This document shows positions 5,935 through 57,112 of a DNA stretch of 64,000 nt, in pieces. A model generated the notes under the pieces. That model saw only the letters and a list, made by a program, of their open reading frames with translations. It had not been told where the DNA came from and made no database searches. Location of the stretch: assembly GCF_016865485.1 (NCBI RefSeq), contig NZ_AP024452.1:5540501-5604500 (forward strand), given 5' to 3'. Both the position numbers and the translations under genes were made by a program. The stretch's first letter is position 1; each line of letters opens with the position of its first letter. The stretch comes from Luteitalea sp. TBR-22 (GTDB lineage: Bacteria; Acidobacteriota; Vicinamibacteria; Vicinamibacterales; Vicinamibacteraceae).

Positions 5935-5949
5935 CTACCCATTCGTCAG

Positions 5950-40462: not shown

Positions 40463-43400
40463 TCAGCCGCGGGCTTCGACCGTGCCGAGCCTGGCCACGA
40501 CCGTCTGCTCGAGCTGGTGCTCGATGGTCAGCAACTGCCGCCGCTCGGCGTCGGCCGGGAGCCCCGCCGCGATCACCTCGGCGCGCCGCGTCGACGCCCC
40601 GGTGGAATGGTCGGCCTCGATGTAGGCCTGCACGATGGCGCCGAAGTCGGCGCCGGTGCGCTCGGCCATCGTCGGCAGGAACGTGATGCCGGCGTGGTTG
40701 ATCACGTGGTTGATCGCCACCGTCGCGATGATCTCGCGCTTGAGCGGATGCTTGCCGAACGTGTCGGCGTACCGCTCCTGCATCAGCGCCGGGAAGTAGC
40801 GGCGCAGCAGGGGCAGGCCGGCCGGCGAGTCCGGGAAGCTCGACGCGAGCACGACGTCGTAGGCGTGCATCTTCGCCTGCCCCAGCACCACGGCGAGCAG
40901 GGGGCGTGGCAGGCCCCGCACGCGCAGCGGGCTGGCCAGCAGGCTCTCCCGGCTCGGGATGGCCTGGTCCTCGCGGCTGAAGACGCGGTTGACGATCATC
41001 TGCTCGATGACCTCGACGAACGTCTCGTACTCGACGACGCTTCGCACGCTGTCGAGCGTGATGGCGCGCGCCTGGTTCCGGTTGTCGTCGAGCACCAGCT
41101 CGGACACGTCGTCGGTCATCTGCTTGAGGACGACGTTGCGCGCCTCCTTGCTGGCGATCACCTTCTCGCGTACCAGGATGTCGAGCAGGATCTTGAGGTT
41201 GACCTCGTGGTCGGACATGTCGACGCCGCCCGAGTTGTCGATCGCGTCGGTGTTGCACAGGCCGCCGCGTTCCCAGTACTCGATGCGCGCCTTCTGCGTC
41301 ATCCCGAGGTTGCCGCCCTCGCCGATGACGCGCGCCTGCACGTCGCGGGCGTCGACGCGCACGCGGTCGTTGGCGCGATCGCCGACCTCGGAGTCGTCCT
41401 CGGTGCTCGCCTTCACGTAGGTGCCGATGCCGCCGTTGTAGAGCAGGTCGACCTTCGCCGTCAGCAGCCGGCGGATCATCTCCTCGCCGGTCACCTCGTC
41501 CTGCTCGATGCCGAACAGCGCCTTCATCTGCGGCGACACCGGAATCGCCTTGGCCGAGCGGTCGAAGATGCCGCCGCCCTCGCTGATCAGCGACGTGTCG
41601 TAGTCGCGCCACGTCGAGCGTGGCAGCTTGAAGAGGCGCTCGCGCTCGGCGAACGTCTTCTCCATGTCGGGATCGGGGTCGACGAAGATGTGCGCGTGGT
41701 TGAACGCCGCCACCAGCTTCGTCACGCGGCTGCGCAGCGCGCCGTTGCCGAACACGTCGCCCGACATGTCACCGATGCCGATCATCGTGAACGGCTCGAC
41801 CTGGATGTCCTGGCCCATGTTGCGGAAGTGGTGCAGCACGCACTCCCAGGCGCCACGCGCGGTGATGCCCTCGACCTTGTGGTCGTAGCCGTTCGATCCG
41901 CCCGACGCGAACGCATCGCCCAGCCAGAAGCCGTACTGCGCCGACACGGAGTTGGCCGTGTCGGAGAGGTGCGCCGTGCCCTTGTCGGCGGCGACGACCA
42001 GGTACGGATCCGGCTGGTCGTACCGGACGACGTCCGGCGGATGCACGACCTGCCCGTCGACGATGTTGTCGGTGATGTCGAGCAGCCCGGAGATGAACTG
42101 GCGGTAGCGATCGATCAGGTACTGGTCGAGCGCCGGCCGCTGCGGCAGCTGGCCCTTGAGCACGAAGCCGCCCTTGGACCCGACGGGCACGATGATCGAG
42201 TTCTTGACCATCTGCGTCTTCATCAGGCCGAGGACCTCGGTGCGGAAGTCGTCGTGGCGGTCGCTCCAGCGCAGGCCGCCGCGGGCGACCTTGCCGCCGC
42301 GCAGGTGGATGCCCTCGAGGTGCGGCGAGTGCACGTAGATCTCGTACAGCGGGCGCGGCGACACCATGCCGGCCACCTTCGCGCACTCGACCTTCATCGA
42401 CACCACGGGACGCTCGGGCGTCTGGTACGCGTTGGTGCGCACGACCGCGAGCAGCAGGTTCTCGACGCCGCGCAGGATCTCGTCGTCGAGCAGGCTCCCG
42501 ACCTGCTGCAGTGCCTTGCGCAGCGCGCCGTCTGCCTGATCGACCGCCGCGTCGCGATCGCCGTCGACGACGGGGTTGAAGCGCGCGTCGAACAGCCGGA
42601 ACAGGGCCGCGGCGGCGGCGCCGTTGCGGACCATCACGCTCGTGATCGTGTCGGCGTTGTAGTTGGGGCGGATCTGGATCAGGTGGTTGCGCAGCGTGCG
42701 CAGCACCTCCACCTGCCGCCACGTCAGCCCCTCGCTGGTGATGAGGCTGTTGAGCGCGTCGTCGGTGGCGCGCTTCTCGTGCAGCGCGCGGAGCGCGTCG
42801 AGCAACCGGTCCGGCGCGTTGACCACCGAGGCGATCACCCTGGGCGACGCCTGGATCCGCAGCCGCTCCACGAAGCCGGTGCGGTTCTCGGGCAGGATGA
42901 GCGGCAGCGACAGCTCGTCGACGACCGGCAGCCCGAGGTTCTGCAGCGTGCGCAGCGTGGCCGTCAGGCCGAGCGGCTTGGGCGCGAACAGCTTGATGGT
43001 GACCTGCTCGGCGTGCTCGGGCAGGACGTTCATCTCGAGCCGACCCTCGAGCGCCTCGAGGCGGGCGAGATCGGCCGGTACCTCCTGCGGGGTCGTGGAC
43101 TCGCGGTACAGGCCGCTGCGGCTCTCGAGCCGCACGTACTTGTTGAACAGCCGCCGGCCCTCGAGCGTGCCGTATGCCCGCTCGAGCTCGATCGCCGCCT
43201 GGTCCTCCCACGTGGTCAGGCCCTGCCGCGTCAGCGTACGCACCGTCTCCACGTCGATCGGCGCTTCCATCTCCGCGGTGTCGAAGTAGAAGACGATCAC
43301 CGCCTTGGTGCCCAGGTCGGCCCACTCGCTGAACAGGATCGGCCCGAAGGCCTCCTGCAGCGACGCGCGCAGCGTCGCCTCGGCCTTCGGCGAGTACCGC

Positions 43401-44707
43401 ACGTCGGAGAAGCCGACCGTCACCGCCGCATAGCCGGTGCCCTGCCGCACGCCGACGGCGATCTCGTCGTCGCCGACCATGTTGACCATCTGCTCGACGA
43501 TCGTGCAGAGGTCCTCGCGCCGGGCGTAGAACAGCTCGCGCTTCGGGAAGTGGTTGAAGATGGCGCGCGCCTCGCGCCAGGCGTGCGAGTTCGGCGTGAC
43601 GTGCAGGCCGTCGAGGATGTAGGTGAGCTTGCCGTCCAGCACCGGGATGTCGGCGGCCTTGCTCGCGAACGCGCTCTTGGCGAAGCGGCCGATGAGCAGC
43701 GTCATGCCGGCGAGGGCGCCCTCGGGCGTCCACTCGCGCACGAACACGTCCTCGAGCGGACCGAGGTGGTGGATGGCGCGGCCGTTGACGCAGTAGTCGA
43801 CGTCGATGGTCCGGGGGTCGTCGGCGGCCGGCGCGAGGTTGCGCGTGATGTCGGCCGGCAGGCCCGGGAACACCGTCTCGAGCAGCGAGGGGTCGCGGAA
43901 CGCGCCGAGCGCGCTGTCGTCCTGGGGCTGCAGGTCGCCGTCGGCGCCGGGCACGTAGCGCATCACGCCCATCAGCACGAAGTTGTCGTCGACGAGCCAT
44001 TGCAGGAGCCGCGCGGAGGCCTCCGCGGCCGGGGCGTCGCCGTCGCGCCCGCGCAGGCGACCGGCCGCCGCGCCGACCGCCGCCTTCATCGCCGCGAAGT
44101 CGCCGACCGCGAGGAACACGCTCTTGAGGAGGCTGAAGATCTGGTGCTCGAGGCGCCGCATCCGCTCGGTGCGCTCGATGCGCTCGATGCGGAACTGGCA
44201 GAACAGCTCCTGCGAGCCCTCCTCGCCGTGCGGGCCGACATGCACCACCCGCTCCCACTGCCGGCGCACCGTCAGGCGCGGGTGGATCGCGGAGAAGACG
44301 CGCAGCCCCTCGTTCTTGAAGAAGTTGGTGAGGCTCTCGAAGATGAACGGCGCGTCGGGCGTGTGGGTCTCGACGATCGTCACCTCGTGCGGCCCGCCGT
44401 CGTGGCCCGCCATCGCCCGGTCTTCCGCGTCGTCGCAGTTGCGGACCGCCACGTGCAGGCCCGGGAGGCCTCGATACAGCTGCACGTCGGGCGGCATCGT
44501 GTGCGCGACGAACCTGAAGTACTCTCCGAGGCGCGCCGCCAGGGCCGCCGCCGGGAGGCGGAACACCACGCTGTCGGGCATCTCGGCCAGCACCACGCCG
44601 GCGAAGGCGCGGCGCAGGTCACGGTCGCCCTCGGGCGCCGTGTCGGCGACGATGCGTTGCACCTCATCGAGGATCTGGGCTCGCTTGGTCGGGTCGGCTG
44701 TGATCAT
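40463..44707 (-). CDS. NAD-specific glutamate dehydrogenase, large type
   Basis: A 1414-residue member of the large bacterial NAD-glutamate dehydrogenase family (usually about 1550-1650, so this is a short version, mainly at the N-terminus). The catalytic region, around residues 800-850, holds KVARGGLRWSDRHDDFRTEV and PVGSKGGFVLKG; the nucleotide-binding part includes GIGDMSGDVFGNG and VIGEGGNLGMTQ. It oxidatively deaminates glutamate to 2-oxoglutarate and ammonium with NAD+, generally in amino-acid catabolism. The start is ATG 44707, divergent from the TPR-like gene with about 70 bp between them. Confidence 0.94.
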   Translation of the reverse strand: MITADPTKRAQILDEVQRIVADTAPEGDRDLRRAFAGVVLAEMPDSVVFRLPAAALAARLGEYFRFVAHTMPPDVQLYRGLPGLHVAVRNCDDAEDRAMAGHDGGPHEVTIVETHTPDAPFIFESLTNFFKNEGLRVFSAIHPRLTVRRQWERVVHVGPHGEEGSQELFCQFRIERIERTERMRRLEHQIFSLLKSVFLAVGDFAAMKAAVGAAAGRLRGRDGDAPAAEASARLLQWLVDDNFVLMGVMRYVPGADGDLQPQDDSALGAFRDPSLLETVFPGLPADITRNLAPAADDPRTIDVDYCVNGRAIHHLGPLEDVFVREWTPEGALAGMTLLIGRFAKSAFASKAADIPVLDGKLTYILDGLHVTPNSHAWREARAIFNHFPKRELFYARREDLCTIVEQMVNMVGDDEIAVGVRQGTGYAAVTVGFSDVRYSPKAEATLRASLQEAFGPILFSEWADLGTKAVIVFYFDTAEMEAPIDVETVRTLTRQGLTTWEDQAAIELERAYGTLEGRRLFNKYVRLESRSGLYRESTTPQEVPADLARLEALEGRLEMNVLPEHAEQVTIKLFAPKPLGLTATLRTLQNLGLPVVDELSLPLILPENRTGFVERLRIQASPRVIASVVNAPDRLLDALRALHEKRATDDALNSLITSEGLTWRQVEVLRTLRNHLIQIRPNYNADTITSVMVRNGAAAAALFRLFDARFNPVVDGDRDAAVDQADGALRKALQQVGSLLDDEILRGVENLLLAVVRTNAYQTPERPVVSMKVECAKVAGMVSPRPLYEIYVHSPHLEGIHLRGGKVARGGLRWSDRHDDFRTEVLGLMKTQMVKNSIIVPVGSKGGFVLKGQLPQRPALDQYLIDRYRQFISGLLDITDNIVDGQVVHPPDVVRYDQPDPYLVVAADKGTAHLSDTANSVSAQYGFWLGDAFASGGSNGYDHKVEGITARGAWECVLHHFRNMGQDIQVEPFTMIGIGDMSGDVFGNGALRSRVTKLVAAFNHAHIFVDPDPDMEKTFAERERLFKLPRSTWRDYDTSLISEGGGIFDRSAKAIPVSPQMKALFGIEQDEVTGEEMIRRLLTAKVDLLYNGGIGTYVKASTEDDSEVGDRANDRVRVDARDVQARVIGEGGNLGMTQKARIEYWERGGLCNTDAIDNSGGVDMSDHEVNLKILLDILVREKVIASKEARNVVLKQMTDDVSELVLDDNRNQARAITLDSVRSVVEYETFVEVIEQMIVNRVFSREDQAIPSRESLLASPLRVRGLPRPLLAVVLGQAKMHAYDVVLASSFPDSPAGLPLLRRYFPALMQERYADTFGKHPLKREIIATVAINHVINHAGITFLPTMAERTGADFGAIVQAYIEADHSTGASTRRAEVIAAGLPADAERRQLLTIEHQLEQTVVARLGTVEARG

Positions 44708-44775: not shown

Positions 44776-45957
44776 GTGGGATGCTCGCATCGCGGGGTCG
44801 TTATCGATGCGACGCCGCCCCGCCGACGGCGGTCGCGCGCCGCCGTTCTGGGCGCGCTCTGGCTCGTCGCCGTGGCGGGCGCGGTCCCGGCGCGGGCGGC
44901 CGGCGTGGCCTGGGAAGCGGCCGTCGATCGGTACCTGGCCGGGGATCGTGCCGGGGCAGGCCAGGTGCTGCTCCAGGCGCCGGCCCGGGAGGTCACGCAA
45001 GGGGCCCGCGACGCGTACCAGTCGTGGCGCATCCCGCCAGGGTCCGGCGACGACGTCCGCCGGTTGGTGATCAGGCGGCTCGAGGCGTCGGCGCTGCTGC
45101 CCCTCGAGGTGCTGATCGTGTCGGGCCGGTCGATGTCGGCCACCCACGAGACCGCGCTCGAGGACGCCGCGCGCGATGCGATCGACCGGTTGGACCCGTT
45201 CGACGAGGGCGAGGAGGCCCGGGCGGTCAGCGTGCGGGCATTCCGTGAGTGGGCGCGCCTGGCGTGGCTGCAGTACCTCGTCGGGGCGAGCCGGTTCCTC
45301 GACTTCCAGCGCGAGCAGAAGAACACCCGCCCCCCGGCCGGCGCCGACGGCGTCGCGGCACTCTCACTGCTGCGCGGCGTGGCGATCGAGACCCGGGCCC
45401 GGCTCGCCGACGAGGCGCCGTCGGCCTCGGTGGCGATGAGCCAGCGCCGCCTGCCGCCGACCTCGCGCGTCCCCGGCATGCTGATCGCCTTCGAGGAGGC
45501 CGGCCGGCACTTCCAGAAGGCCCTCGACGCGCGTCCCGAGGACCGCGAGGCAGTGCTGCACCTCGGACGCCTGGCATTCGAGCGTGAGCGCCACGACGAG
45601 GCCGAGCGCGTGCTCGCGCCGCTGCTCGAGCAACCGTGCCGCGACGCGATCTGCGGCCTGGCGCACCTGTTCATGGGCGAGGTCGCCGAGGCGCGCAAGC
45701 AACCCGATCGCGCCGCGGGGTTCTACGCGAAGGCATCGGCCGTCGCCGCCGTGCGGCAGACGGCGCTGGTGGCGATGATGCAGTCGTCGATGCGCCGCGG
45801 GCAGGCGGGCGGCGCCTACGACCTCACGCGGCAGTTCGCCAGCCCGGCAGCCCTCGCGCCCCGGCAGCCCGCCGACGCGTGGAGCCAGTACATCGGCGGG
45901 CGCCTCGCGCAGGCCGACCTCGTGCTCGTCCACCTGCTGACCGGGGTGTTGCCATGA
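44776..45957 (+). CDS. Exported TPR-like protein, pair partner of VWFA protein 1
   Basis: A 393-residue exported protein. A signal sequence (about residues 20-43) follows a basic N-terminus; the rest is all-helical with TPR-like repeats near the C-terminus (ALDARPEDREAVLHLGRLAFERERHDEA, AGFYAKASAVAAV). Two cysteines in the motif PCRDAICGLAHLFMGE are conserved in the paralog at 48105 and may form a disulfide. I chose GTG 44776, preceded by a GGGGAGA stretch; TTG 44713 or ATG 44719 are alternatives. Its stop overlaps the start of the VWFA gene by four bases. The function is unknown; the pairing suggests the two products act together in the periplasm. Confidence 0.85.
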   Translation: MGCSHRGVVIDATPPRRRRSRAAVLGALWLVAVAGAVPARAAGVAWEAAVDRYLAGDRAGAGQVLLQAPAREVTQGARDAYQSWRIPPGSGDDVRRLVIRRLEASALLPLEVLIVSGRSMSATHETALEDAARDAIDRLDPFDEGEEARAVSVRAFREWARLAWLQYLVGASRFLDFQREQKNTRPPAGADGVAALSLLRGVAIETRARLADEAPSASVAMSQRRLPPTSRVPGMLIAFEEAGRHFQKALDARPEDREAVLHLGRLAFERERHDEAERVLAPLLEQPCRDAICGLAHLFMGEVAEARKQPDRAAGFYAKASAVAAVRQTALVAMMQSSMRRGQAGGAYDLTRQFASPAALAPRQPADAWSQYIGGRLAQADLVLVHLLTGVLP

Positions 45958-46904
45958 GCCGCAGCACGGGAGCCGTGCATCGCCTCGCGGCGCGAGCCGT
46001 GCTCACGGCCCTCGCGGCTGGCGCGGGTGCAGGCGTGGCGCGCGCGCAGGACCAACCGACCTTCCGCGCGTCGGTCGACGTGGTGACCATCGATGCGTAC
46101 GCGCATCGCGATCGCAAGCCGATCCCCGGTCTGACGGCCCGGGACTTCGTGGTCCGCGACAACGGCGTCGAGCAGCCCGTCGACTCGCTCGGCACGACCG
46201 ACAGCGCGCACGTCATCATCGGCCTCGACCTGAGCGGCAGCGTCGACGGTCCGACGCTCGAACGGCTCAAGGCGGCCGTGCGCACGCTGGCGGCGCAACT
46301 GACCGCGCAGGACCGGGTGTCGTTGTTCACGTTCTCGGACCGGTTGCGCCTGCTGATCCGGGCGGCGACGCCCGGCGGCGACATCGAGACGACACTCGCG
46401 CGGTTTGCGGCCGGCGGCGCCACGCCGCTGCAGGACGCGATCGTGCTCGGCGCGGCGCTGTCGCACGCCGACCAGCGGCCGTCCGTGTTCCTGCTGTTCA
46501 CCGACGGCCAGGACACGACCAGCTGGACCTCCGCCGCACGCGCGCTCGACGTCCTGCGCCGCACCAACGTCGTCGTCTTTCCCGTCGGCGCGGGCCTGCC
46601 GGTGGCGATGACGTCGGCGCCGTTTGCCGACGCGCTGACGCGGCAGCCGTGGATGGCCGCGACGCCGGGCGATGGCCTGCGTTTGCTGCAGTCGGCAGCC
46701 GAGGTGACCGGCGGCGAGTTCCTGCGCGTGGAGAAGGACGCGAAGCTCTCGGAGACCTTCCAGGGCATCCTCGGGCAGTACCGCCAGCGCTACCTGCTGA
46801 CCTACACGCCGGCGACGACGGCGCCGGGCTTCCACAAGCTGGAGGTGCGCCTGCGCGGGCGCCCAGGCACCGTCGTGGCGCGAGAGGGATACGTGGCGCG
46901 GTAG
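45954..46904 (+). CDS. VWFA-related acidobacterial-domain protein 1
   Basis: A 316-residue exported protein of the family known as VWFA-related Acidobacterial domain (TIGR03436). A signal peptide (about residues 1-32) is followed by FRASVDVVTIDAYAHRD and GLTARDFVVRDNG, then a von Willebrand A fold with metal-ion-dependent adhesion site Asp92-x-Ser94-x-Ser96 (DLSGS), a Thr in GGATPLQDA and an Asp in LLFTDGQD. It ends YLLTYTP...VRLRGRPGTVVAREGYVAR, an extra beta domain. Such proteins probably bind protein partners or surfaces in a metal-dependent way; no function is established. It is translationally coupled to the preceding TPR-like gene. A heptad array begins at its stop codon. Confidence 0.92.
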   Translation: MSRSTGAVHRLAARAVLTALAAGAGAGVARAQDQPTFRASVDVVTIDAYAHRDRKPIPGLTARDFVVRDNGVEQPVDSLGTTDSAHVIIGLDLSGSVDGPTLERLKAAVRTLAAQLTAQDRVSLFTFSDRLRLLIRAATPGGDIETTLARFAAGGATPLQDAIVLGAALSHADQRPSVFLLFTDGQDTTSWTSAARALDVLRRTNVVVFPVGAGLPVAMTSAPFADALTRQPWMAATPGDGLRLLQSAAEVTGGEFLRVEKDAKLSETFQGILGQYRQRYLLTYTPATTAPGFHKLEVRLRGRPGTVVAREGYVAR

Positions 46905-47002
46905 GGATCGGGAGTCGGGAGTCGGGAGTCGGGACGTCGGGAGTCGGGAGTCGGGAGTCGGGAATCGGGCACCGGGCACCGGGCACCGGGCACCGGGCAC
47001 CG
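46905..47002. repeat. Heptad array GGAGTCG then GGCACCG (about 14 units), starting at the VWFA1 stop
   Basis: Directly after the TAG (46902-46904) come GGATCG, then GGAGTCG seven times with one 8-bp variant among them, GGAATCG, and GGCACCG five times (46968-47002). The unit sequence changes but the 7-bp phase is kept across the switch. Confidence 0.95.
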
Positions 47003-47017
47003 GAACGTCCAACGCCG

Positions 47018-47053
47018 AACTCGCCGCGCGCCGCAGGCGCACATCGGCGAGTC
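47018..47053. repeat. 36-bp dispersed repeat, copy 1 (hairpin-forming)
   Basis: Identical over 36 bp to 57270-57305. Outer arms ACTCGCCG and CGGCGAGT and an inner GCGCC/GGCGC stem allow a nested hairpin. It lies between the two VWFA genes. Confidence 0.9.
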
Positions 47054-47062
47054 CTGAACGCC

Positions 47063-47083
47063 GCATGACGCATGACGCATGAC
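47063..47083. repeat. Heptad repeat, unit GCATGAC (3 units)
   Basis: Three perfect 7-bp units, followed by degenerate 7-bp steps (CGAAGGC-type) to about 47115, ahead of the second VWFA gene. Confidence 0.85.
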
Positions 47084-47160
47084 GAACGAAGGCCGACGGC
47101 CGAATGACGAAGGCCGTCTCGCTTCGGCAACGGAGTAGACTGCGGCGCACGGGGACGGCG

Positions 47161-48108
47161 ATGCCTCTCGAGCTCATGCGTCGGCTCTCGCTCATCGTCG
47201 CGCTCTCGGCAGCGGCGGTGTGTCCGCAAGCGCCACGCGCACAGGAGTCCACGTTCCGTGCGTCGGTCGATGTCGTGAGGATCGACGCCTTCGCGCACCG
47301 CGACCAGCAGCCCGTCACTGGCCTGACCGCTCGGGACTTCGTGGTGCGCGACAACGGCGTCGAGCAACAGGTCGATGCCATCGGCACGACCGACAGCGCT
47401 CACGTCGTCGTCGGCCTCGACGTCAGCGCCAGCGTGGACGGCGAGACGCTGGCGCAGCTCAGGGCTGGCGTCGCCGCCGTCCTGGCGACGTTGACGCCGC
47501 GCGATCGCGTGTCCGTGTTCACGTTCGCCGACCAGGTGCGGATCCTGGCGCGGGTGGCGCAGCCGCAGGCCGGGCTGGACGCACGCATCGGCGACTTGGC
47601 GGCCGCCGGCTCGACCTCGCTGCACGATGCGCTGGTGGTGGGCAGCGTGCTGGCGCGCGCCGACGAGCGCCCCTGCGTGTTCCTGCTGTTCACCGACGGC
47701 CACGACACGGGGAGCTGGAGCAGCACGCCGCGTGTCTTCGACATCCTCCGACGCACGAACGTGGTGGTGTTCCCGGTGGGCGCGGGCCTGCCACGCGACG
47801 GAGTCCCGACGCGGGAGTCGACCTACTTCTACAAGTGGACGTGGACGGCTCCCGCACCTTCCGACACGCGGCTGCTGCTCGAGCGGGTGGCCGACACGAC
47901 CGGGGGCGCCTTCCTGCGCATCGGGCGCGGCGACCGACTTGCCGACACCTTCGCACGCATCCTCGCGAGCTACCGGCAGCGTTACCTGATCTCGTACACG
48001 CCGACCGGCGTCAGGACCGACGACGGCTGGCACCGCCTGGAGGTCCGCCTGCGGAGCCGCCCCGGCGCCGTCGTGGCGCGCGAGGGCTACATGGCGAGGC
48101 AGCCATGA
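47161..48108 (+). CDS. VWFA-related acidobacterial-domain protein 2
   Basis: A 315-residue paralog of the protein at 45954, with the same signal, FRASVDVVRIDAFAHRD and GLTARDFVVRDNG, MIDAS residues Asp87, Ser89 and Ser91 (DVSAS), LLFTDGHD and C-terminus YLISYTP...VVAREGYMARQP. It has a longer insert (STYFYKWTW) before the last helix. I chose ATG 47161, with GGGGAC upstream and a TAGACT -10-like hexamer at 47136-47141; ATG 47176 is an alternative. Its stop overlaps the start of the second TPR-like gene by four bases, so the partner order is reversed relative to copy 1. Confidence 0.92.
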   Translation: MPLELMRRLSLIVALSAAAVCPQAPRAQESTFRASVDVVRIDAFAHRDQQPVTGLTARDFVVRDNGVEQQVDAIGTTDSAHVVVGLDVSASVDGETLAQLRAGVAAVLATLTPRDRVSVFTFADQVRILARVAQPQAGLDARIGDLAAAGSTSLHDALVVGSVLARADERPCVFLLFTDGHDTGSWSSTPRVFDILRRTNVVVFPVGAGLPRDGVPTRESTYFYKWTWTAPAPSDTRLLLERVADTTGGAFLRIGRGDRLADTFARILASYRQRYLISYTPTGVRTDDGWHRLEVRLRSRPGAVVAREGYMARQP

Positions 48109-49349
48109 TGCACGGCGAAGCGCGCGGGCATCGTCGACTCGGGACCATGGCGGCGGCGTGGCTGGCCGTGTCGGTCGGGCTCGGGCTGACCACACCTGCG
48201 GCCCGCATCGGACAGGCGCCGGCCGTCGACCTGACCGCGGCTGTAGACGCATGGCTCGCCGGTGATGAAGCCGGTGTCATCGGCGCGTCGCGCCTGCCCG
48301 CCGCGGAGGTGCGCGCCAGGGTCGCGCGCCTGCTGACCGCATGGGGAGCAGGCGATGAGGAGGCACCCGCCTATCCGACCGCGCCCTCGGCAGGCATGGC
48401 GCCCGACCGCAGCCTCCATGCGCGCAGGCAGGGGGTTCGCCGCACGCAGGCGCTTGCCTCCCTGGCACTCCAGGTCCTGCTGGAGACGCGCGTGGCGAAG
48501 GCGGAAGCGACGGCATGGGAGGAGGTCACACGCGCCGCCGACACCAGGCTCGCGCGGGTCACGCAGGCGCATCTCCAGGAGCCCGCCGATCGGCGGCAGC
48601 TGGCGACCTACCGCGGCTGGTGGCTCGTGACGTACCTGCAGTTCCTGCACGAGGCGAGGCGGACCGATTTCGATGCGGTGGTTGGCCGGACGTCGCTCGA
48701 AGGCGTCGACGAGGAGATCCGGGCGGAGTTCCACGCCATACGCGGCCTGCGCGCCGAGTACATGTCGCGCCTCGCGCCGTCAGGCAGGCCGGTGCCCGAG
48801 GTGGACCTGATCGGCGGCGAACCGGTGAACGCGGCGACGCAGGGCGCACGCGGACGTTGGCTGCGGCGCTGGCTGGGCACGGCCGACGGCCTGTTCGCGG
48901 AGGCGGTCAGGCGCGATCCCGCACACGAGGAGGCACGCCTGCACTGGGGACGCGTGGCCCTCGAACGTGACCGTGCCGACGATGCGATTGAGCGGCTGTC
49001 GCCGCTGGTGCGGGTACCGTGCGCCGACACGGCGTGCGGCCTGGCCGCGCTGTTCACCGGGGAGGCGCACGAGCAGGCGGGGCGGCTGGCCGAGGCCGAC
49101 CGCGCGTACGCGCAGGCGTCGAGCGCACCGACCGTGCGCCCGCATGCCCTCATCGCGCTCATGGGGCTCGCCGTACGCCGCGGCGAGTCGTCAGGCACGG
49201 CACTCACGCGTCACCTGGAGTCGGGAACGATGGCGCCATCGACGACGACCGCGTGGAACGCCTACCTGAACGGGAAGCGCCTGGATCCCGGTGCCGTGAT
49301 CATGCGGCTGCGGGCGGCGGTCGTCGGGCCGCCGAAAAATGGCGGATGA
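48105..49349 (+). CDS. Exported TPR-like protein, pair partner of VWFA protein 2
   Basis: A 414-residue exported, mostly helical protein, paralogous to that at 44776. A signal segment (about residues 14-37) is followed by DLTAAVDAWLAGDEAGV (compare WEAAVDRYLAGDRAGA in copy 1), a helical middle and a TPR-like C-terminal part with the shared cysteine motif PCADTACGLAALFTGE and YAQASSAPTVRPHALIALMGLAVRRGESSG. The start ATG overlaps the VWFA2 stop (ATGA). The function is unknown; the co-duplication with VWFA proteins argues for a physical or regulatory partnership. Confidence 0.87.
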   Translation: MMHGEARGHRRLGTMAAAWLAVSVGLGLTTPAARIGQAPAVDLTAAVDAWLAGDEAGVIGASRLPAAEVRARVARLLTAWGAGDEEAPAYPTAPSAGMAPDRSLHARRQGVRRTQALASLALQVLLETRVAKAEATAWEEVTRAADTRLARVTQAHLQEPADRRQLATYRGWWLVTYLQFLHEARRTDFDAVVGRTSLEGVDEEIRAEFHAIRGLRAEYMSRLAPSGRPVPEVDLIGGEPVNAATQGARGRWLRRWLGTADGLFAEAVRRDPAHEEARLHWGRVALERDRADDAIERLSPLVRVPCADTACGLAALFTGEAHEQAGRLAEADRAYAQASSAPTVRPHALIALMGLAVRRGESSGTALTRHLESGTMAPSTTTAWNAYLNGKRLDPGAVIMRLRAAVVGPPKNGG

Positions 49350-49407
49350 AATGCCTGCGACCCGCGTAGACTGACGGGCGCGCCCTTACTCCCCCTGGAG
49401 CCTTCCC

Positions 49408-50502
49408 GTGTCAGTCCCGACCTCCCGCCGCGCCTTTCTCTCCACCGCCGCCGCCGCGGTCGCCGTCGCCACCGTGCACGGCCAGGGCACCGCGAAGGCG
49501 CCCGCCAGCCTTCCCAGGCCGGTCCCCCTCGGCTTGGACAACTTCGCCGTCCGCGCCAGCAACTGGAAGGCGACGCGGCTGCTGGAGTACGCGACGACGG
49601 TCGGCGCCGACTCGGTGTTCATCAGCGACCTCGACGCCTTCGAGTCCCTCGAGGACGCGGCGCTGAAGAAGCTGCGCGAGGACGCGGCCGCCCGTAGCCT
49701 CACCATCCACGTCGGCACGTGGAGCGTATGCCCCACCAGCAAGGCGTTCCGCCCGGCCAACGGCACGGCGCAGGAGCAGCTGGCGAAGGTGATCCGGGTG
49801 GCGCAGCAGGTGGGCTCGCCCGTCGCGCGCGTCGTGCTCGGCACGTGGGAGGACCGGCTGACGCCCGGTGGCATCGGCCGCCACATGGACAGCCTGGTGG
49901 CCGTGCTCAAGGGCGGGCGGTCGCAGGCGCTCGATGCCGGCGTGAAGATCGCCGTCGAGAACCACGCCGGCGACATGCGCGCCGACGAGCTCGCCGCGCT
50001 CGTCGAGATGGCGGGCCGCGACTTCGTGGGCGTGAACTACGACTCGGGCAACTCGCTCTGGACCCTCGAGAACCCGCTCGACGCCCTCGAGGCCCTCGCC
50101 CCCTACATCGTGACGACCAGCCTCCGCGATGGCGTGGTCACCGAGATCCCCACCGGCTGCCGCGTCAAGTGGACCGCGATGGGCGATGGGCAGGTCGACT
50201 TCGCGCGCTTCATGCCGCGCTTCGCGGAGCTGTGTCCCGGCATCCCGGTGCACATCGAGACGATCTCCGGCGTCGGCCGCGACATCCCGTTCCTCGACGA
50301 CGCGTTCTGGGCCGCGTGGCCGCGGCTCGAGGGCCAGAGCCTCGCGCGCTTCCTGCGGATCATGCGGCGCAAGGCGCCGATGGCGACCACGACGAGCAAG
50401 CCGAACGACCCGCTCGAGCAGCGCCGCGAGCTCGAGCGCAGCCTGGCGTATTGCAAGACACTCGGCCTCGGCCTGCGGGTGGCGAAGATCAGCCAGGGGT
50501 AG
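49408..50502 (+). CDS. Tat-exported sugar phosphate isomerase/epimerase-like TIM-barrel protein
   Basis: A 364-residue xylose-isomerase-like TIM barrel with a twin-arginine signal (TSRRAFLSTAAAAVAVA). Putative metal-ligand strands are VAVENHAGD-like IAVENHAGD, VGVNYDSGNS and VHIETISG. The start is GTG 49408 with GGAG seven bases upstream, and a TAGACT hexamer at 49367-49372 is a likely -10. Only weakly similar to the isomerase-like protein at 7660. The sulfatase gene follows after 145 bp of repeats, so co-transcription is possible but uncertain. The substrate is unknown. Confidence 0.87.
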   Translation: MSVPTSRRAFLSTAAAAVAVATVHGQGTAKAPASLPRPVPLGLDNFAVRASNWKATRLLEYATTVGADSVFISDLDAFESLEDAALKKLREDAAARSLTIHVGTWSVCPTSKAFRPANGTAQEQLAKVIRVAQQVGSPVARVVLGTWEDRLTPGGIGRHMDSLVAVLKGGRSQALDAGVKIAVENHAGDMRADELAALVEMAGRDFVGVNYDSGNSLWTLENPLDALEALAPYIVTTSLRDGVVTEIPTGCRVKWTAMGDGQVDFARFMPRFAELCPGIPVHIETISGVGRDIPFLDDAFWAAWPRLEGQSLARFLRIMRRKAPMATTTSKPNDPLEQRRELERSLAYCKTLGLGLRVAKISQG

Positions 50503-50518
50503 GCCGACGACGGGCTCG

Positions 50519-50546
50519 GGCTTACGGCTTACGGCTTACGGCTTAC
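50519..50546. repeat. Heptad repeat, unit GGCTTAC (4 units)
   Basis: Four perfect 7-bp units, 16 bp after the isomerase-like gene's stop; the intervening bases are G/C-rich with degenerate 7-bp steps. Confidence 0.9.
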
Positions 50547-50557
50547 GAACAGCATCG

Positions 50558-50625
50558 TGTAGGCGTCGGGCTCGCCCGACGCTCAGCGAATCAGCACTGA
50601 CCGTCGGCCAAGGCCGACGCCTACA
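50558..50625. repeat. REP/BIME-like double palindrome upstream of the sulfatase
   Basis: A 68-bp element whose ends are inverted (TGTAGGC and GCCTACA). The left palindrome is GCGTCGGGC/GCCCGACGC (50563-50582) and the right is GTCGGCC/GGCCGAC (50603-50618), joined by TCAGCGAATCAGCACTGACC. Variants of this joint occur at 57026-57034 and 57241-57266. It ends 22 bp before the sulfatase ATG. Confidence 0.85.
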
Positions 50626-50647
50626 TCTCGTGAGTGATGGAGGACGG

Positions 50648-52159
50648 ATGGCACGGATCGGCCGGATGGGTAGGTGGGTGTGGTTGGCTGCGGTTGTTGC
50701 GTTGCTCCTGAGCGCCCCACTCGCGCGGGCGCAGGCGAGCAAGCCGCGCAACATCGTCTTCATCCTCACCGACGACCATCGCTACGACGCGCTCGGCGTG
50801 ATCAACCACCCGCTGGCGCGGACGCCGAACATGGACACGCTCGCCAGGGGCGGCGCGCACATGCGCAACGCCTTCGTGACGACCGCGCTCTGCTCGCCGT
50901 CGCGCGCCTCGATCCTCACCGGCACCTACGCGCACACGCACGGCGTGGTGGACAACTTCACGCCGATCCCGCCGGCGCTCCCCAACGTCGGCCAGTTGCT
51001 GAAGGCCGCCGGCTACCAGACGGCGCTCGTCGGCAAGTGGCACATCGGCAACGAGGACGACAAGCCGCAGCCCGGGTTCGACCGCTGGGTGAGCTTCCGT
51101 GGCCAGGGCGAGTACCTGCCGCGCGCCGGCGCCACGATGCTCAACGTCGACGGCACCCGCGTGCCGCAGAAGGGCTACATCACCGACGAACTCACCGACT
51201 ACGCGGTGCAGTGGCTCGAGCAGACCTCGCGCGACAAGCCGTTCTTCCTGTATCTCTCGCACAAGGGCGTGCACGCCGAATTCGTGCCCGCCGACCGCCA
51301 CAAGGGGTCGCTGAAGGACGTGCCGGTGCCTGCCCCGGCGACGATGTCCCCGGAGGCCGCCGTGTCGGGGCGGTTCCCGACGTGGGTGCGCAACCAACGC
51401 AACAGCTGGCATGGGGTGGAGTTCCCGTACCACTCGACGCTCGATGTCGCCGAGTACTACCGCCGCTACATGGAGACGTTGCGCGCCGTGGACGACAGTG
51501 TCGGCCGCGTGCTCGACTGGCTGAAGAAGACCGGCCAGATGGAGAACACGCTGGTCATCTACATGGGCGACAACGGCTTCGCGTTCGGCGAGCACGGCCT
51601 GATCGACAAGCGCACGGCGTTCGATTGGTCGATGCGCGTGCCGATGCTGGTGTACGCGCCCGGCCTCGTCAAGCCGGGCCAGCAGATCGACCGCGTGGTG
51701 GCCAACATCGACATCGCCCCGACGATGCTCGACCTCGCGGGGGCGGCGCGACCGACGCACATGCAGGGCGAGAGCATGCTGCCGATCCTGCGCGACGCGA
51801 AGGCGCCGTGGCGGACGTCGCTGCTCTACGAGTACTACTGGGAATGGAGCTTCCCGCAGACGCCGACGCAGTTCGCGCTGCGCGGCGAGCGCTACAAGTA
51901 CGTCTTCACGCACGGCGTCTGGGACGTCGACATGTTCTTCGACCTGCAGGCCGACCCGCAGGAAGCGCACAACCTGGCCGAGGATCCCGCGCACCAGAAG
52001 ACGATCCAGGCGATGCGCGCCGAGCTGTTCGGGATGCTCGAGAAGACCGGCGGCCTGAAGATCCCGCTCTACATGCCGCGCATGGGCCAGAGCCGCCTGC
52101 GCAACCCGGCGGGCTCGCCAGCCGCGCCGTTTCCCGACGCGTTGATCAGGAAGCCGTAG
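50648..52159 (+). CDS. Exported sulfatase (formylglycine type)
   Basis: A 503-residue arylsulfatase-family enzyme with a signal peptide (about residues 1-29). Metal ligands lie in TDDHRYD (Asp42, Asp43). The formylglycine signature is CSPSRASILTG with Cys82 as the residue oxidised by a maturase, and later active-site elements are GKWHIG, YLSHKGVH and YMGDNGF. The C-terminus ends in PEDPA-type sulfatase features (YDLQADPQE-like FFDLQADPQEAHNL). The start is ATG 50648, behind GGAGG. It probably removes sulfate esters from a glycan in the periplasm; no maturase (FGE or anSME) gene is in the window. A heptad array starts directly after the stop. Confidence 0.93.
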   Translation: MARIGRMGRWVWLAAVVALLLSAPLARAQASKPRNIVFILTDDHRYDALGVINHPLARTPNMDTLARGGAHMRNAFVTTALCSPSRASILTGTYAHTHGVVDNFTPIPPALPNVGQLLKAAGYQTALVGKWHIGNEDDKPQPGFDRWVSFRGQGEYLPRAGATMLNVDGTRVPQKGYITDELTDYAVQWLEQTSRDKPFFLYLSHKGVHAEFVPADRHKGSLKDVPVPAPATMSPEAAVSGRFPTWVRNQRNSWHGVEFPYHSTLDVAEYYRRYMETLRAVDDSVGRVLDWLKKTGQMENTLVIYMGDNGFAFGEHGLIDKRTAFDWSMRVPMLVYAPGLVKPGQQIDRVVANIDIAPTMLDLAGAARPTHMQGESMLPILRDAKAPWRTSLLYEYYWEWSFPQTPTQFALRGERYKYVFTHGVWDVDMFFDLQADPQEAHNLAEDPAHQKTIQAMRAELFGMLEKTGGLKIPLYMPRMGQSRLRNPAGSPAAPFPDALIRKP

Positions 52160-52215
52160 GACTTACGGCTTGCGGCTCAGGGCTCAGGGCTCAGGGCTCA
52201 GGGCTCAGGGCTCAG
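52160..52215. repeat. Heptad array GGCTCAG (8 units) starting at the sulfatase stop
   Basis: Immediately after TAG (52157-52159) come GACTTAC, GGCTTGC and then GGCTCAG six times in perfect register (52174-52215). It is the cleanest array in the window. Confidence 0.95.
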
Positions 52216-52310: not shown

Positions 52311-52338
52311 CGTCAGGCGTCAGGCGTAGGGCGTCAGG
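52311..52338. repeat. Heptad repeat, unit CGTCAGG (4 units), containing the immunity-gene stop
   Basis: CGTCAGG, CGTCAGG, CGTAGGG, CGTCAGG. The TCA of the last unit (52334-52336) is the stop codon of the minus-strand immunity gene, so the array runs into coding sequence. Confidence 0.85.
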
Positions 52339-52642
52339 CGCGCCAGGCGTTCAGCAGCAGCGCCGACACCACCTCGAACTCGAGCTCGTTGGCCGGCGCC
52401 CATGACCCGCCGGCCAGCTCGCGCAGCGCCGCGGCGCGCGCCTCCAGGCTCATGCCGTGCGTCACGTTGAGGAACGAGCGCCACTCCGACGACAACTCCA
52501 TCGCGTCGTCGCGGCTCGCCTCGGCCAGCCAGGCCTGCACCGCCTTCTGGGCCGAGCCGTGCTCGGCGACGAAATCCTGGTGCAGGTGGCCGCCGCACAG
52601 CGACGCGAGCTGTTCCCACTCCATCGGCCCCTTCAGGCTCAT
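52334..52642 (-). CDS. CdiI-type contact-dependent inhibition immunity protein
   Basis: A 102-residue acidic protein resembling the CdiI_2 immunity family, whose members begin with a short helix and the motif FxHQDxxxEYGS. Here it reads GGHLHQDFVAEHGSAQKAVQAWLAE, followed by three helices and ending in LLLNAWRA. It has no signal sequence, as expected for a cytoplasmic antidote. Its ATG overlaps the stop codon of the RNase-like toxin gene (ATGA), the usual toxin-then-immunity order. It would bind and block the toxin. The family call is from recognised motifs, without a profile search. Confidence 0.75.
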   Translation of the reverse strand: MSLKGPMEWEQLASLCGGHLHQDFVAEHGSAQKAVQAWLAEASRDDAMELSSEWRSFLNVTHGMSLEARAAALRELAGGSWAPANELEFEVVSALLLNAWRA

Positions 52643-53391
52643 CGCACGTCCTCCGGGTACGACGTCAGCACGTACCAGTCCTCGCCCCGCCAGCGCAGCA
52701 CCACCACCGCCCCCTCTGTCGCCTCCGATGCCTCGGCGCCGCGGCGCAACACGCGACCGGTCGGCAAGCCGTCGCGGGCGCGGTAGCGGATCGCGAGGTT
52801 CGATCGCGCGCCGCGCTTGTCGATCCAGCGCCGGACACGCGCCTCGTTGTCGGCCAGGGCGCGCGCGATGATCCGCTCGGCGGTCTCCCGATCGAAGTAG
52901 GTCGAGGCCGCTGAAATCGACTCACGGGCGAGCCGGGCCTTCAGCTGCGCATCAGTGCGGCCGACGTGGCGGGCCAGCGTGTGGCCGCCACGCTGCTCGT
53001 CGCGCTCGAGATCGACCGTCCAGGCGGCCTCGGGCTGCACGCCGCTGCGCGGTTCGACGGCTCGCGGAGCCGTGCGTTCCTGTGGTGGCGCGGCGCCGTC
53101 GCCGCGCGGCACGCTTGCCACCGGCGGCGTCGCCGGCGCGGGTGGCGACGAGGGTTGCGACGAGCACGCGCCGGCCAGCGACAGCACGATGAGCAACAGC
53201 GCGCCGAAGACGGCCCGGGTACCTCCCCTGTGGTGCCCTGACCGTCGAGCACGCTCGACAGCTACATCAGGAAAGGCCGTGGTCCAGGCGTTGGTCCCGA
53301 TCCGCCAATCCCGATCCGCGGTCCGCACCCTGCGGTCTGTGGCCTGCCCGGTGCCCGGTGCCAGCAACCCGGTGCCCGGCCGACTACGCAT
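52639..53391 (-). CDS. Stand-alone exported RNase A-like (CdiA-CT/YkrI-type) toxin
   Basis: A membrane or lipoprotein-like leader (LLLIVLSLAGACSS, about residues 63-78) and a proline-rich linker precede a C-terminal domain (about 132-250) resembling the RNase A-fold CdiA toxin family: GGHTLARHVGRTDAQLKAR, ISAASTYFDRETAERI, GRVLRRG and a final YVLTSYPED. Candidate active-site residues His142, Arg153, Thr243 and Tyr245 have the same spacing (11, 101, 103) as I recall for the Yersinia YkrI toxin (His175, Arg186, Thr276, Tyr278). The start is uncertain: ATG 53391, overlapping the nanE end, is the only good in-frame ATG, but then residues 1-32 are encoded by heptad repeats. It is not fused to a CdiA exoprotein. 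The immunity gene follows with a 4-bp overlap. Confidence 0.75.
   Translation of the reverse strand: MRSRPGTGLLAPGTGQATDRRVRTADRDWRIGTNAWTTAFPDVAVERARRSGHHRGGTRAVFGALLLIVLSLAGACSSQPSSPPAPATPPVASVPRGDGAAPPQERTAPRAVEPRSGVQPEAAWTVDLERDEQRGGHTLARHVGRTDAQLKARLARESISAASTYFDRETAERIIARALADNEARVRRWIDKRGARSNLAIRYRARDGLPTGRVLRRGAEASEATEGAVVVLRWRGEDWYVLTSYPEDVR
53296..53379. repeat. Heptad-phased region (12 units), units CCCGATC and TGCCCGG
   Basis: Eighty-four bases parse as twelve 7-bp blocks: CCCGATC, CGCCAAT, CCCGATC, CGCGGTC, CGCACCC, TGCGGTC, TGTGGCC, TGCCCGG twice, TGCCAGC, AACCCGG, TGCCCGG. It lies four bases from the nanE stop and covers the presumed start region of the toxin gene. Confidence 0.8.
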
Positions 53392-54126: not shown

Positions 54127-54188
54127 AGGCTCAGGGCTCAGGAACATTGGTCAAGGCTCGGGGCTCAAGGCTCGAGGCTCAGGGCTCG
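54127..54188. repeat. Heptad array (AGGCTCA/GGGCTCG) containing the kinase stop codon
   Basis: AGGCTCA, GGGCTCA, a 13-bp break, then AGGCTCG, GGGCTCA, AGGCTCG, AGGCTCA and GGGCTCG. The kinase stop (54179-54181, minus strand) and its last codons (PEP) are repeat sequence, so an array has replaced or created the 3' end of the gene. Confidence 0.85.
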
Positions 54189-55252
54189 GGAAGCACCCGG
54201 GACGAATTCACCAGGGCAGCCCGCAGCGCATCGGTCAGCGGTCGCCCGGCGGCCCTTAACGCCAGCAGCGCGGCCCCTTCCGCGGGGCTCAGGCTCGCCG
54301 GTTCGACCGTTGCGCCGGGCAGCTGCGACACGACCGCGACCCGGAACGCCTCGGCATAGGCGCCCGATCTGAACACGCCCCCTGACAGGCAGACGCGCGG
54401 CGCGACCAGCGCCAGTCGCTCGGCGATCGAGCGCACCCGTGACGCCAGCGCCTCGATGCCGGACGCGACCACGCGCCCGGCCACGCCATCGCCGGCCTGC
54501 CACGTGTCGAGCACGTCGCGGGCGGCGGCAGCCACGCCATCGCGGCTCACGTGGCCGTTGTACATCACCATGGGGAGCAGGCGCAGATCCGCCAACGCAA
54601 AGCGCCTGGTCAAGACCGGCACGAGCGCTGTCTGGGGGCCGACGCCGTCGAGCGCCTCGAGCCCCGCGCGAATACCTTCCCGCGCCAGCCCGAAGCCGCT
54701 GCCTTCGTCGCCGAACACGTAGCCCCAGCCGCCAGCCCGCGCCGACCGTCCCTCGGCATCCTCGCCGTACACCACCGACCCGGTGCCCGCGATCACGATG
54801 ATTCCGGGATCCCCCAGCGTGCCGCCGGCGAGAGCCGCCGGGGCGTCATGCTCCACCCGCACGACGCGCGATTGGAAGATCGGCGTGATGATCTCCGTCT
54901 TGAAGTCGGCCTCGCCCGTCATCGCGCAGTAGACGGCCTCGAAGGCCACGGCGTCGACGCGTCCGAGACCGGCGGCCGAGAGAGCCCCGTTGGAACTGTC
55001 GATGACCGCCGCCCGCAGCCGCTCGCGCCCGCCCGGCATCTCCACGTGATTGGACGGCCCGGCCGCGCCACGCCCGAGGACGCGTCCTGTGCCGTCCACC
55101 AGCACGGCCTGCGTGCCGGTCTGCCCGCCGTCGATGCCGAGGAAGAGCTCACGCGTACCGGGAGTCGGGAGTCGGGAGTCGGGAGTCGGTCGGGAGTCGG
55201 GAGTCTGACGGGTGGGAGTCAGCTGTCGGTCAGCGTCCCGGATGCTCGACAT
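54179..55252 (-). CDS. BadF/BadG-type ATPase, probable N-acetylhexosamine kinase
   Basis: A 357-residue ASKHA-fold kinase of the BadF/BadG/BcrA family, as in N-acetylglucosamine kinase: phosphate-1 loop GIDGGQTGTQAV (residues 39-50), VIAGTGSVVYGED and GDEGSGFGLAREGI in the middle, and adenosine motif VCLSGGVFRSGAYAEAF. Adjacent nanE suggests phosphorylation of ManNAc or GlcNAc. The N-terminus is odd: the only usable in-frame ATG (55252) gives a 34-residue extension, of which about 18 residues (TPDSRPTPDSRLPTP) are the translation of a GGGAGTC heptad array. The C-terminal PEP and the stop codon also lie in a heptad array, so both ends of the gene are bounded by repeats. Confidence 0.88.
   Translation of the reverse strand: MSSIRDADRQLTPTRQTPDSRPTPDSRLPTPGTRELFLGIDGGQTGTQAVLVDGTGRVLGRGAAGPSNHVEMPGGRERLRAAVIDSSNGALSAAGLGRVDAVAFEAVYCAMTGEADFKTEIITPIFQSRVVRVEHDAPAALAGGTLGDPGIIVIAGTGSVVYGEDAEGRSARAGGWGYVFGDEGSGFGLAREGIRAGLEALDGVGPQTALVPVLTRRFALADLRLLPMVMYNGHVSRDGVAAAARDVLDTWQAGDGVAGRVVASGIEALASRVRSIAERLALVAPRVCLSGGVFRSGAYAEAFRVAVVSQLPGATVEPASLSPAEGAALLALRAAGRPLTDALRAALVNSSRVLPEP
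55160..55220. repeat. Heptad array GGGAGTC (7 units) within the kinase 5' end
   Basis: GGGAGTC four times in register (55160-55187), then three more copies with short breaks (55192-55198, 55199-55205, 55214-55220). On the minus strand this is translated as repeats of DSRLPTP type. Confidence 0.92.
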
Positions 55253-55280
55253 GGAACGCTCTGCGGGCCCGGCACCCTGT

Positions 55281-55315
55281 CCCGATTCCCCATTCCCGAT
55301 TCCCGACTCCCGTCC
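55281..55315. repeat. Heptad repeat, units CCCGATT / CCCGACT (5 units)
   Basis: CCCGATT, CCCCATT, CCCGATT, CCCGACT, CCCGTCC, ending eight bases from the stop of the 101-residue small protein gene. Confidence 0.85.
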
Positions 55316-57026: not shown

Positions 57027-57040
57027 TCAGTGATCTTTCG

Positions 57041-57096
57041 CGGATCGGGGATCGCGGATCGGGGATCGGGCACCAGGTACCGGGCACCGGGGGACG
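57041..57096. repeat. Heptad array (CGGATCG, GGGATCG, GGCACCG; 8 units)
   Basis: CGGATCG, GGGATCG, CGGATCG, GGGATCG, GGCACCA, GGTACCG, GGCACCG, GGGGACG, all in 7-bp register. It shows the same GGATCG-to-GGCACCG switch as the array at 46905-47002. Confidence 0.9.
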
Positions 57097-57112
57097 CAAC
57101 GTCGTCGACGTC

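Follow-up and report, generated by a model that had tools for sequence, protein, structure and literature searches.

Heptanucleotide repeat arrays of a Luteitalea genome lie at open reading frame edges in a preferred orientation

Results

Heptad arrays adjoin stop codons in a 64-kb window

In the genome of Luteitalea sp. TBR-22 (Acidobacteriota; G000 below), a single contig of 6,468,984 bp, tandem arrays of 7-bp units (heptads) lie between genes and, in the main unit families, face the nearest open reading frame (ORF) with a fixed end. We describe them from a stretch of 64,000 nucleotides, positions 5540501–5604500, which we call the window, and compare them with a same-genus relative (G001), another relative (G004) and two same-genus draft genomes (G002 and G003). 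A sequence-only reading of the window had claimed that the arrays start at, overlap or end next to stop codons; using Tandem Repeats Finder (TRF), the ORF list and the sequence, we found the arrays that it names where it had placed them, and for seven genes its names agree with Pfam.

Directly past the TAG of a VWA-domain gene (45954–46904, stop at 46902–46904), a plus-strand array of GGGAGTC units followed by CGGGCAC units extends from 46905 to 47003. The coordinates bear out that it begins with the first base after the stop, a partial unit occupying 46905 and the first full unit starting at 46908. The same had been said of the plus-strand array at 52160–52215 behind a sulfatase gene (TAG at 52157–52159), which is correct if two degenerate units, GACTTAC and GGCTTGC, standing in register before the rest are counted, and incorrect for the perfect part, GGCTCAG x6 at 52174–52215, which starts 14 bp past the stop. 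After the array comes GAAAGCA, which other arrays of this family also have at that place; the G004 ortholog of the sulfatase gene has a 10-bp spacer and no array. Four GGCTTAC units (50519–50547, plus strand) lie 16 bp past the stop of a TIM-barrel gene (49408–50502), which in both G001 and G004 overlaps its neighbour by 4 bp, leaving no spacer.

On the minus strand, an array reading GGGCTCA in pntB sense (5948–5974) touches the pntB stop (5975–5977), and a GGCTCAG-type array (8752–8797) lies 1 bp past the stop of a DUF5916 gene (8799). The same pntB stop in G001 has a CGCCTGA array and a different stop codon; at the DUF5916 edge, G001 carries an array with other units and G004 none. A degenerate GGCTCAG-type array (40407–40444) lies 18 bp past the stop of a large minus-strand ORF (40463–44707). 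The array at 53345–53379 is 4 bp past the nanE stop (53384), so that the arrays of pntB, the DUF5916 gene and nanE all touch their stops or lie within 4 bp of them, as had been read; the nanE array is weak (71% match) and falls under the score cut of the genome survey. Two further minus-strand arrays do include stop codons, namely a CGCCTGA-type array (52311–52340) with the stop of a CdiI-like immunity gene (52334), the unit TGA being in register with it, and a TGAGCCT-type array (54151–54190) with the stop of a BadF-type ATPase gene (54179). The corresponding gene end in G004 is free of arrays, with a 4-bp overlap between the neighbouring genes.

Not all window arrays are at stops. A CGGGAGT array (55159–55212, plus strand) lies upstream of the BadF-type gene start and is the left arm of a convergent pair, whose inverted arm (TCCCGAT; 55280–55312, minus strand) is 11 bp past a minus-strand stop. 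A TCGCGGA/CGGGCAC array (57038–57091, plus strand) lies upstream of a minus-strand start and adjoins a 23-bp tandem repeat of 5.2 copies (57109–57226). Rfam, at gathering thresholds, matched no family in the window. The minus-strand genes at 52334–53040 encode, by Pfam, a protein with a CdiA-CT RNase A domain paired with the CdiI-type immunity protein.

Period-7 arrays are abundant and intergenic

We scanned 100 evenly spread 20-kb stretches (numbered with an L below) together with the window, 2,064,000 bp of the 6.47 Mb in all, in which a hexamer model called 1547 genes (86% coding), with firm stops and uncertain starts. Period 7 yielded 203 arrays, and every other period from 4 to 15 gave 0–19 except the harmonic 14 (137). 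Non-coding DNA, which makes up 13.7% of the bases, holds most of the length of 183 of the 203 arrays. GGGAGTC is the commonest family, with 42 of the 203 arrays, and GGGAATC accounts for 4. Period 8 ranks next in non-coding DNA of G000 (12 of its 16 arrays being intergenic) and, in 360 kb of G001, gave 14 arrays against 0–1 for periods 5, 6, 9 and 10. Six heptad arrays of several families occur in L072 (7365–8264) in a stretch called coding, a call that may be spurious. The 203 arrays form 186 clusters, of which 18 lie within ORFs and 7 have no flanking gene in their stretch, so that 161 were used; 12 of these have equal numbers of G and C and hence no orientation, leaving 149 oriented clusters for the polarity counts.

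Arrays are polar with respect to ORF edges

Distances from arrays to gene edges were set against a random model of 5000 uniform placements of the arrays within the same spacers. At stop edges, 50 of 183 distances are at most 4 bp, whereas 21.5 ± 2.8 were expected and no simulation exceeded 33; the stop excess is thus real and random intergenic placement is refuted for the sampled part of G000. Start edges show no such excess at this distance (8/139 vs 8.3 expected, with uncertain start calls).

The bias proposed by the sequence-only reading is therefore tied to gene ends, but as a polarity of one orientation. With the G-rich strand of the array in gene sense, 38 of 87 stop edges fall within 4 bp (10.7 expected, rising to 14.8 when placement in the last 30 bp before starts is forbidden), whereas with that strand antisense 8 of 83 do (10.0 expected; Fisher p=4e-7 for the asymmetry). 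Upstream of starts the orientation is mirrored: within 30 bp, antisense arrays number 30/62 against 17.3 expected and sense arrays 11/66 against 19.3. Because the mirrored orientation is enriched there, the rule concerns ORF edges and not merely 3' untranslated regions (UTRs), and the pure 3'-UTR function that had been suggested leaves the start-side arrays uncovered. Arrays thus turn the 5' end of their G-rich strand towards the ORF irrespective of gene direction. The 5' side is the nearer one in 109 of 149 oriented clusters (median 18 bp, compared with 93 bp on the other side) and in 83 of 114 arrays that stand alone.

The main families follow this rule closely. Sense and antisense arrays within 10 bp of stops number 11:1 for GGGAGTC, 12:0 for GGGCTCA and 5:1 for GGCAGTC, and antisense and sense arrays within 30 bp of starts number 12:0, 7:0 and 3:0, respectively; for TTTGACG the ratio at stops is 6:2. 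Units containing GGG are more polar than those without (67/85 vs 42/64), yet GGCAGTC reaches 10/11.

Convergent intergenic regions are array-rich (43/161 arrays vs 173/970 spacers) and divergent ones array-poor (21/161 vs 199/970), and neighbouring arrays are convergent rather than divergent in 12 vs 3 cases at a score of at least 14 and in 26 vs 7 at a score of at least 9. Barring the 50 bp before starts from placement nearly removes the excess in tandem regions (16 vs 13.3; 10 vs 9.6) and leaves that in convergent regions (24 vs 14.3). Near the edge of start-side arrays, TANNNT occurs in 7 of 30 cases compared with 2.8 after shuffling (P=0.0135), which makes a -10 box a weak lead.

Stop triplets of array units lie in register with gene stops, and protein ends are no more altered than elsewhere

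Some arrays include the stop codon itself. Of 24 arrays whose unit carries a stop triplet in gene sense, and which start within 4 bp and score at least 9 when measured strictly downstream of the stop, 16 are phased so that this triplet coincides with the stop of the gene (against 3.4 expected; p=7e-9), other cut-offs agreeing; in G001 this is so in 5 of 7 (1.0 expected). TAA is also enriched at stops with an array at a gap of at most 3 bp (14/65, compared with 97/1481 genes overall), and some of these TAA or in-register cases are ORFs running into the array. Several orthologous pairs keep the last residue and differ beyond it, for example AAG-TGA followed by CGGTTGA in G000 and AAG-TAA followed by CGCCTAA in G001, or, for pntB, CAC-TAG followed by AGGGCTC in G000 and CAT-TGA followed by CGCCTGA in G001.

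Protein ends were compared over 144 of 171 reciprocal matches, after those under 60% identity, those under 120 aa and those lacking a called stop had been dropped. Where an array lies at the stop, the two genomes use different stop codons in 10/19 comparisons (two G000 genes being counted twice among the 19, against two relatives), compared with 39/125 where there is none. Tails of at least 3 aa that do not align occur in 4/19 and 35/125, respectively, so that C-termini are no more often altered at arrays than elsewhere and we reject the idea that arrays truncate or change proteins.

The sequence-only reading had also pointed out that a unit with a stop triplet, repeated three times, puts stops in all three frames of one strand. 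In gene sense, 19 of the 65 arrays at stop edges do so and 41 contain no stop at all, which rules it out as a general function. The complement strands are alike, with 41 lacking stops and 22 having them in all three frames, and since the strands do not differ, the stop-bearing strand is not chosen. Nor do arrays replace intrinsic terminators, as terminator-like sites (a hairpin and a U run) are not depleted at array ends: they occur at 8/60 convergent gene ends with an array vs 7/168 others (p=0.03, more with arrays) and at 5/83 vs 27/349 tandem gene ends. Most array ends have no terminator-like site.

Related genomes keep array sites and change the unit

With G001 and G004 we obtained 171 reciprocal best matches at a median identity of 79–84%, and 81 comparisons of spacers between conserved neighbours, some G000 spacers being counted against both relatives. 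Arrays are present in both genomes in 14 of these comparisons, in G000 only in 9, in the relative only in 12 and in neither in 46 (Fisher p=0.0011, and p=0.04 if pairs with a spacer shorter than 80 bp in either genome are set aside). Thirteen of the shared sites are with G001 and one is with G004, and at none of the 14 is the dominant unit identical: the most similar units agree in 3–6 of 7 letters, on average 4.64, close to the 4.46 of shuffled pairs (P=0.21). Related species thus keep the place of an array but not its unit, which separates place from sequence. Spacers are longer where the array is, with medians of 154 bp in G000 and 49 bp in the relative for the 9 pairs with an array only in G000, and of 136 bp in G000 and 315.5 bp in the relative for the 12 pairs with one only in the relative.

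The units also differ genome by genome. Whole-genome matches to (GGTCTCA)3 number 0 in G000, 132 in G001 and 2 in G004, those to (GGCTCAG)3 91, 14 and 22. Three copies of CGGGAGT(C) occur 217 times in G000, 49 in G001, 70 in G004, 2 in G003 and 0 in G002, and are present in 7 of 60 relatives. G002 and G003 have 0–2 matches for each of three tested units and may lack such arrays or use others. The excess at stop edges recurs in the 360 kb of G001 (17 of 58 within 4 bp, strands summed, against 4.9 expected).

Some families show a replication-strand bias, and some are arms of inverted repeats

In both G000 and G001 dnaA lies at 340 bp, which places the origin near position 1; the cumulative GC skew of the sampled G000 stretches peaks near 3.2 Mb and has a broad minimum, and the replication-strand test assumes a G000 terminus near 3.23 Mb. 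On this basis the G-rich strand of GGCTCAG arrays is the lagging-sense strand in 43 of 53 distinct arrays (p=5.6e-6), and that of GGGAGTC arrays in G001 in 24 of 31 (23–26 for other assumed termini). Genes are 59% leading (912/1547), so gene orientation is no obvious cause of the array strand bias, which is as orientation-dependent slippage would give.

Inverted partner arms scoring at least 12 are found on the 3' side of 5/5 AATTTGA, 11/25 GGGCTCA, 5/28 GGGAGTC and 0/10 GGCAGTC arrays, and over all families on the 3' side in 26/116 and on the 5' side in 2/50. AATTTGA arrays flank a repeated double-hairpin core, found by inspection, with 8 matches, and by-eye counting gave GARAGC after 11 of 34 GGGCTCA arrays. 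Arms score in 44% vs 36% of cases against their own and same-family targets for GGGCTCA, 100% vs 76% for AATTTGA and 18% vs 14% for GGGAGTC, the same-family targets scoring nearly as high because other members carry arms too. Some arrays, of the GGGCTCA and AATTTGA families, are also arms of dispersed inverted-repeat elements; as the full cause of the polarity this architecture is rejected, as it fits AATTTGA and part of GGGCTCA, and neither GGGAGTC nor GGCAGTC.

The AATTTGA element, of ~120 bp, consists of an AATTTGA array, two G+C-rich hairpins and an inverted TCAAATT array, and was seen with a similar core in several spacers, in L034, L038, L045, L050, L072 and L075. Intergenic palindromes of the type GTCGACCTTCAGGTCGAC are also found repeatedly in G000 and G001, some adjoining heptad arrays (for example in L041 near 11169). 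Matches resembling Y1 transposases number 2 in G000, 4 in G001 and 2 in G004.

GGGAGTC arrays pooled from other phyla share the polarity

Among the matches listed, a (GGGAGTC)4 scan found cyanobacteria, Xanthomonadaceae, Acidobacteria, Chloroflexales, Akkermansiaceae, Bacteroidales and others. From 120 stretches, with genes called by ORF length and codon-position GC and the arrays pooled across phyla, 79 intergenic arrays were used, 38 others lying inside the crudely called ORFs. At a GC content below 0.5 the 5' side is nearer to the ORF in 41/52 arrays, and within 20 bp of stops 20 arrays face with the 5' side and 1 with the 3' side; at a GC content of at least 0.5 the 5' side is nearer in 21/27, and the stop counts are 10 and 4. 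When records of other phyla are pooled, their GGGAGTC arrays thus show the polarity again, although many of the loci come from Moorena and are therefore not independent.

Discussion

We tentatively favour an explanation in which the arrays are fast-turnover slippage products with a direction, anchored at the point where coding sequence comes under purifying selection; it may well be right, if a little short of an even chance. The arrays would be satellites with a 7-bp unit that evolve fast, originating and being renewed between genes by strand slippage in replication, and their unit families would carry an intrinsic direction. On the 5'-end side of the G-rich (or family-specific) strand an array would extend to the first base under purifying selection, that is, up to the last sense codon when the unit supplies a stop and otherwise up to the stop codon; towards a start it would halt ~20–30 bp before it, and on its opposite side it would fade into ordinary spacer. 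Slippage would here be the engine, one-sided growth or loss would make the arrays polar, and selection acting on coding sequence would stop them. The units that differ at shared sites and the C-termini that are no more altered than elsewhere fit an expansion that halts at gene ends better than they fit a pure 3'-UTR function or stops in three frames.

Several observations weigh against this explanation. Slippage alone gives no polarity towards ORF edges, and a search for the purity gradient that growth from one end might leave along an array gave none that was clear. Polarity is weak for lone arrays in convergent regions (20/29, p=0.06; 18/29 and 19/32 at lower cut-offs) and absent in divergent regions (9/19), which a purely mutational polarity does not predict. 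GGCGTTC is reversed, with sense:antisense 0:3 at stops and antisense:sense 0:2 at starts. G001 as a whole lacks G-strand polarity (5' side nearer in 23/53), and its stop edges within 4 bp even hold 11 antisense arrays (2.2 expected) and 6 sense arrays (2.7 expected), which counts against a simple G-rich rule. GGTCTCA has no replication bias, with 21 of 42 arrays below 3.74 Mb among the 100 of 132 matches listed, and the heptads of Xanthomonas were reported to prefer neither the leading nor the lagging strand (Rehm et al. 2015, PMC4692102). The replacement of units at kept sites may also be less telling than it appears, as spacers may be unalignable at such divergence.

The absence of polarity in divergent regions is what one would expect if transcription entering an ORF were stopped just before it by a quadruplex roadblock or by Rho, a proposal that we regard as unlikely. 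Incoming transcription, antisense at stops and read-through at starts, would meet a G-rich template or make C-rich RNA, so that a single reason would cover both the sense orientation at stops and the antisense orientation at starts, and arrays would be many in convergent regions and few in divergent ones, where no transcription enters. Such one-way barriers would give the most direct account of the ORF-edge polarity and of its absence in divergent regions, and the stronger polarity of GGG units agrees with them; units without GGG, foremost GGCAGTC, are polar too, however, G001 shows no overall G-strand polarity, and the divergent sample is only 19, with the scarcity there also fitting promoter avoidance. 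Cyanobacteria are not known to have Rho, and if they lack it, the Rho version would fail for Nostoc. Mobility offers another source of direction, in that the arrays could be arms of mobile intergenic inverted-repeat elements, resembling miniature inverted-repeat transposable elements (MITEs) or repetitive extragenic palindromic (REP) sequences, genome-specific amplified families whose outward arm ends would face the ORFs. The double-hairpin core between AATTTGA arrays, the GARAGC after GGGCTCA, the 3'-side location of inverted arms, the convergent neighbours and the presence of Y1 transposase-like matches in all three genomes point this way. We nonetheless rate it as rather unlikely, with arm scores little above those of same-family targets and partner arms missing from most arrays of GGGAGTC, the largest family, and from all ten tested GGCAGTC arrays, both of which are strongly polar.

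If an enzyme or TGA/TAA microhomology directed insertion to stop codons, the in-register triplets and the over-used TAA would be explained, but this is improbable given that 41 of the 65 arrays at stop edges lack a stop triplet when read in gene sense and that start-side arrays obey the mirrored rule. That the arrays serve as fail-safe translation terminators with stops in three frames past the gene, a property noted for forward TAACTGA repeats (MacGregor 2015, PMC4679880) and supplied here by 19 of 65 stop-edge arrays, is very improbable: the same stop-free majority and the indifference of the complement strands speak against it, and GGGCTCA keeps its stop-less strand in gene sense (12:0). 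Plain random placement gains a little from the near disappearance of the tandem excess once 50 bp before starts are barred, but is scarcely tenable with the convergent excess staying and the sense/antisense asymmetry untouched. Beyond these, we consider it conceivable, if doubtful, that a polar process operating across phyla actively renews arrays outward from ORF edges, by growth from one end or by one-sided loss, and rewrites the spacer together with the stop codon while sparing the last sense codon, the genome-wide unit dialect being able to switch within a genus, or else that one-way barriers shield ORFs from incoming transcription. A similar rule was described in 2015 for two bacterial groups, with no cause given; it holds again in an Acidobacteriota genome and when records of other phyla are pooled, and it takes a sharper form here, with the main unit families pointing away from the ORF edge. 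The separation of place from sequence makes the function or origin of the arrays a testable question.

REP sequences, bacterial interspersed mosaic elements (BIMEs) and MITE-like elements are intergenic palindromes; the Luteitalea arrays may resemble them in the inverted arms around hairpin cores of AATTTGA and part of GGGCTCA, and differ from them in that most GGGAGTC and 10/10 tested GGCAGTC arrays have no partner arm. The inverted repeats downstream of E. coli stops described by Miura et al. 2018 (PMC6060812) are mostly intrinsic terminators; like these, the Luteitalea repeats are enriched just past stop codons, but they are direct repeats and no substitute for terminator-like sites. MacGregor 2015 (PMC4679880) describes TAACTGA direct repeats of Beggiatoaceae, cyanobacteria and Bacteroidetes, which when forward give stops in all frames and in some cases overlap the stop of the upstream ORF. 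The Luteitalea heptads are likewise intergenic and sometimes overlap the upstream stop, and both kinds of repeat are scattered across phyla. They differ from a single forward unit placed mostly just upstream of starts: TAACTGA is absent among the 45 of 47 unit families listed for the G000 sample, and the start-adjacent placement typical of it shows no excess within 4 bp here (8/139 vs 8.3), starts being uncertain.

A survey (PMC4060949) mentions over-represented longer repeats and a satellite overview (PMC6749651) mentions heptamer satellites, in passages that do not contain the ORF-edge rule, and among the matches listed in the open-licence PMC literature on Luteitalea repeats, heptameric repeats and Acidobacteria tandem repeats there was no report of these arrays. 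The phenomenon is nevertheless of a known kind, the polarity having been reported for Xanthomonas and Nostoc by Rehm et al. 2015 (PMC4692102), whose GGGNATC-type heptads, their function left open, lie within 50 bp of a stop on the sense strand or antisense upstream of ORFs. Those repeats are closer to the 5' ORF, form convergent pairs, are few in divergent regions, share sites among relatives, prefer four units and form quadruplexes in vitro (PMC4692102). The Luteitalea arrays agree in their GGGANTC-type unit (GGGAGTC in 42 and GGGAATC in 4 of 203), their non-coding bias (183/203), their convergent pairs (12 vs 3), their scarcity between divergent ORFs (21/161 vs 199/970) and their sense orientation at stops and antisense orientation at starts, from which G001 as a whole departs. 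Features that the passages of the literature found do not contain are unit families with their own directions, in-register stop triplets, a replication bias and changed units at kept sites. Unlike the Rehm repeats, which show no leading/lagging preference in Xanthomonas (PMC4692102), the Luteitalea arrays have a replication-strand bias (43/53; 24/31 in G001), and they belong to another phylum, comprise many unit families with directions of their own, some without G runs, share no unit at 14 shared sites and place their stop triplets in register with the stop of the gene.

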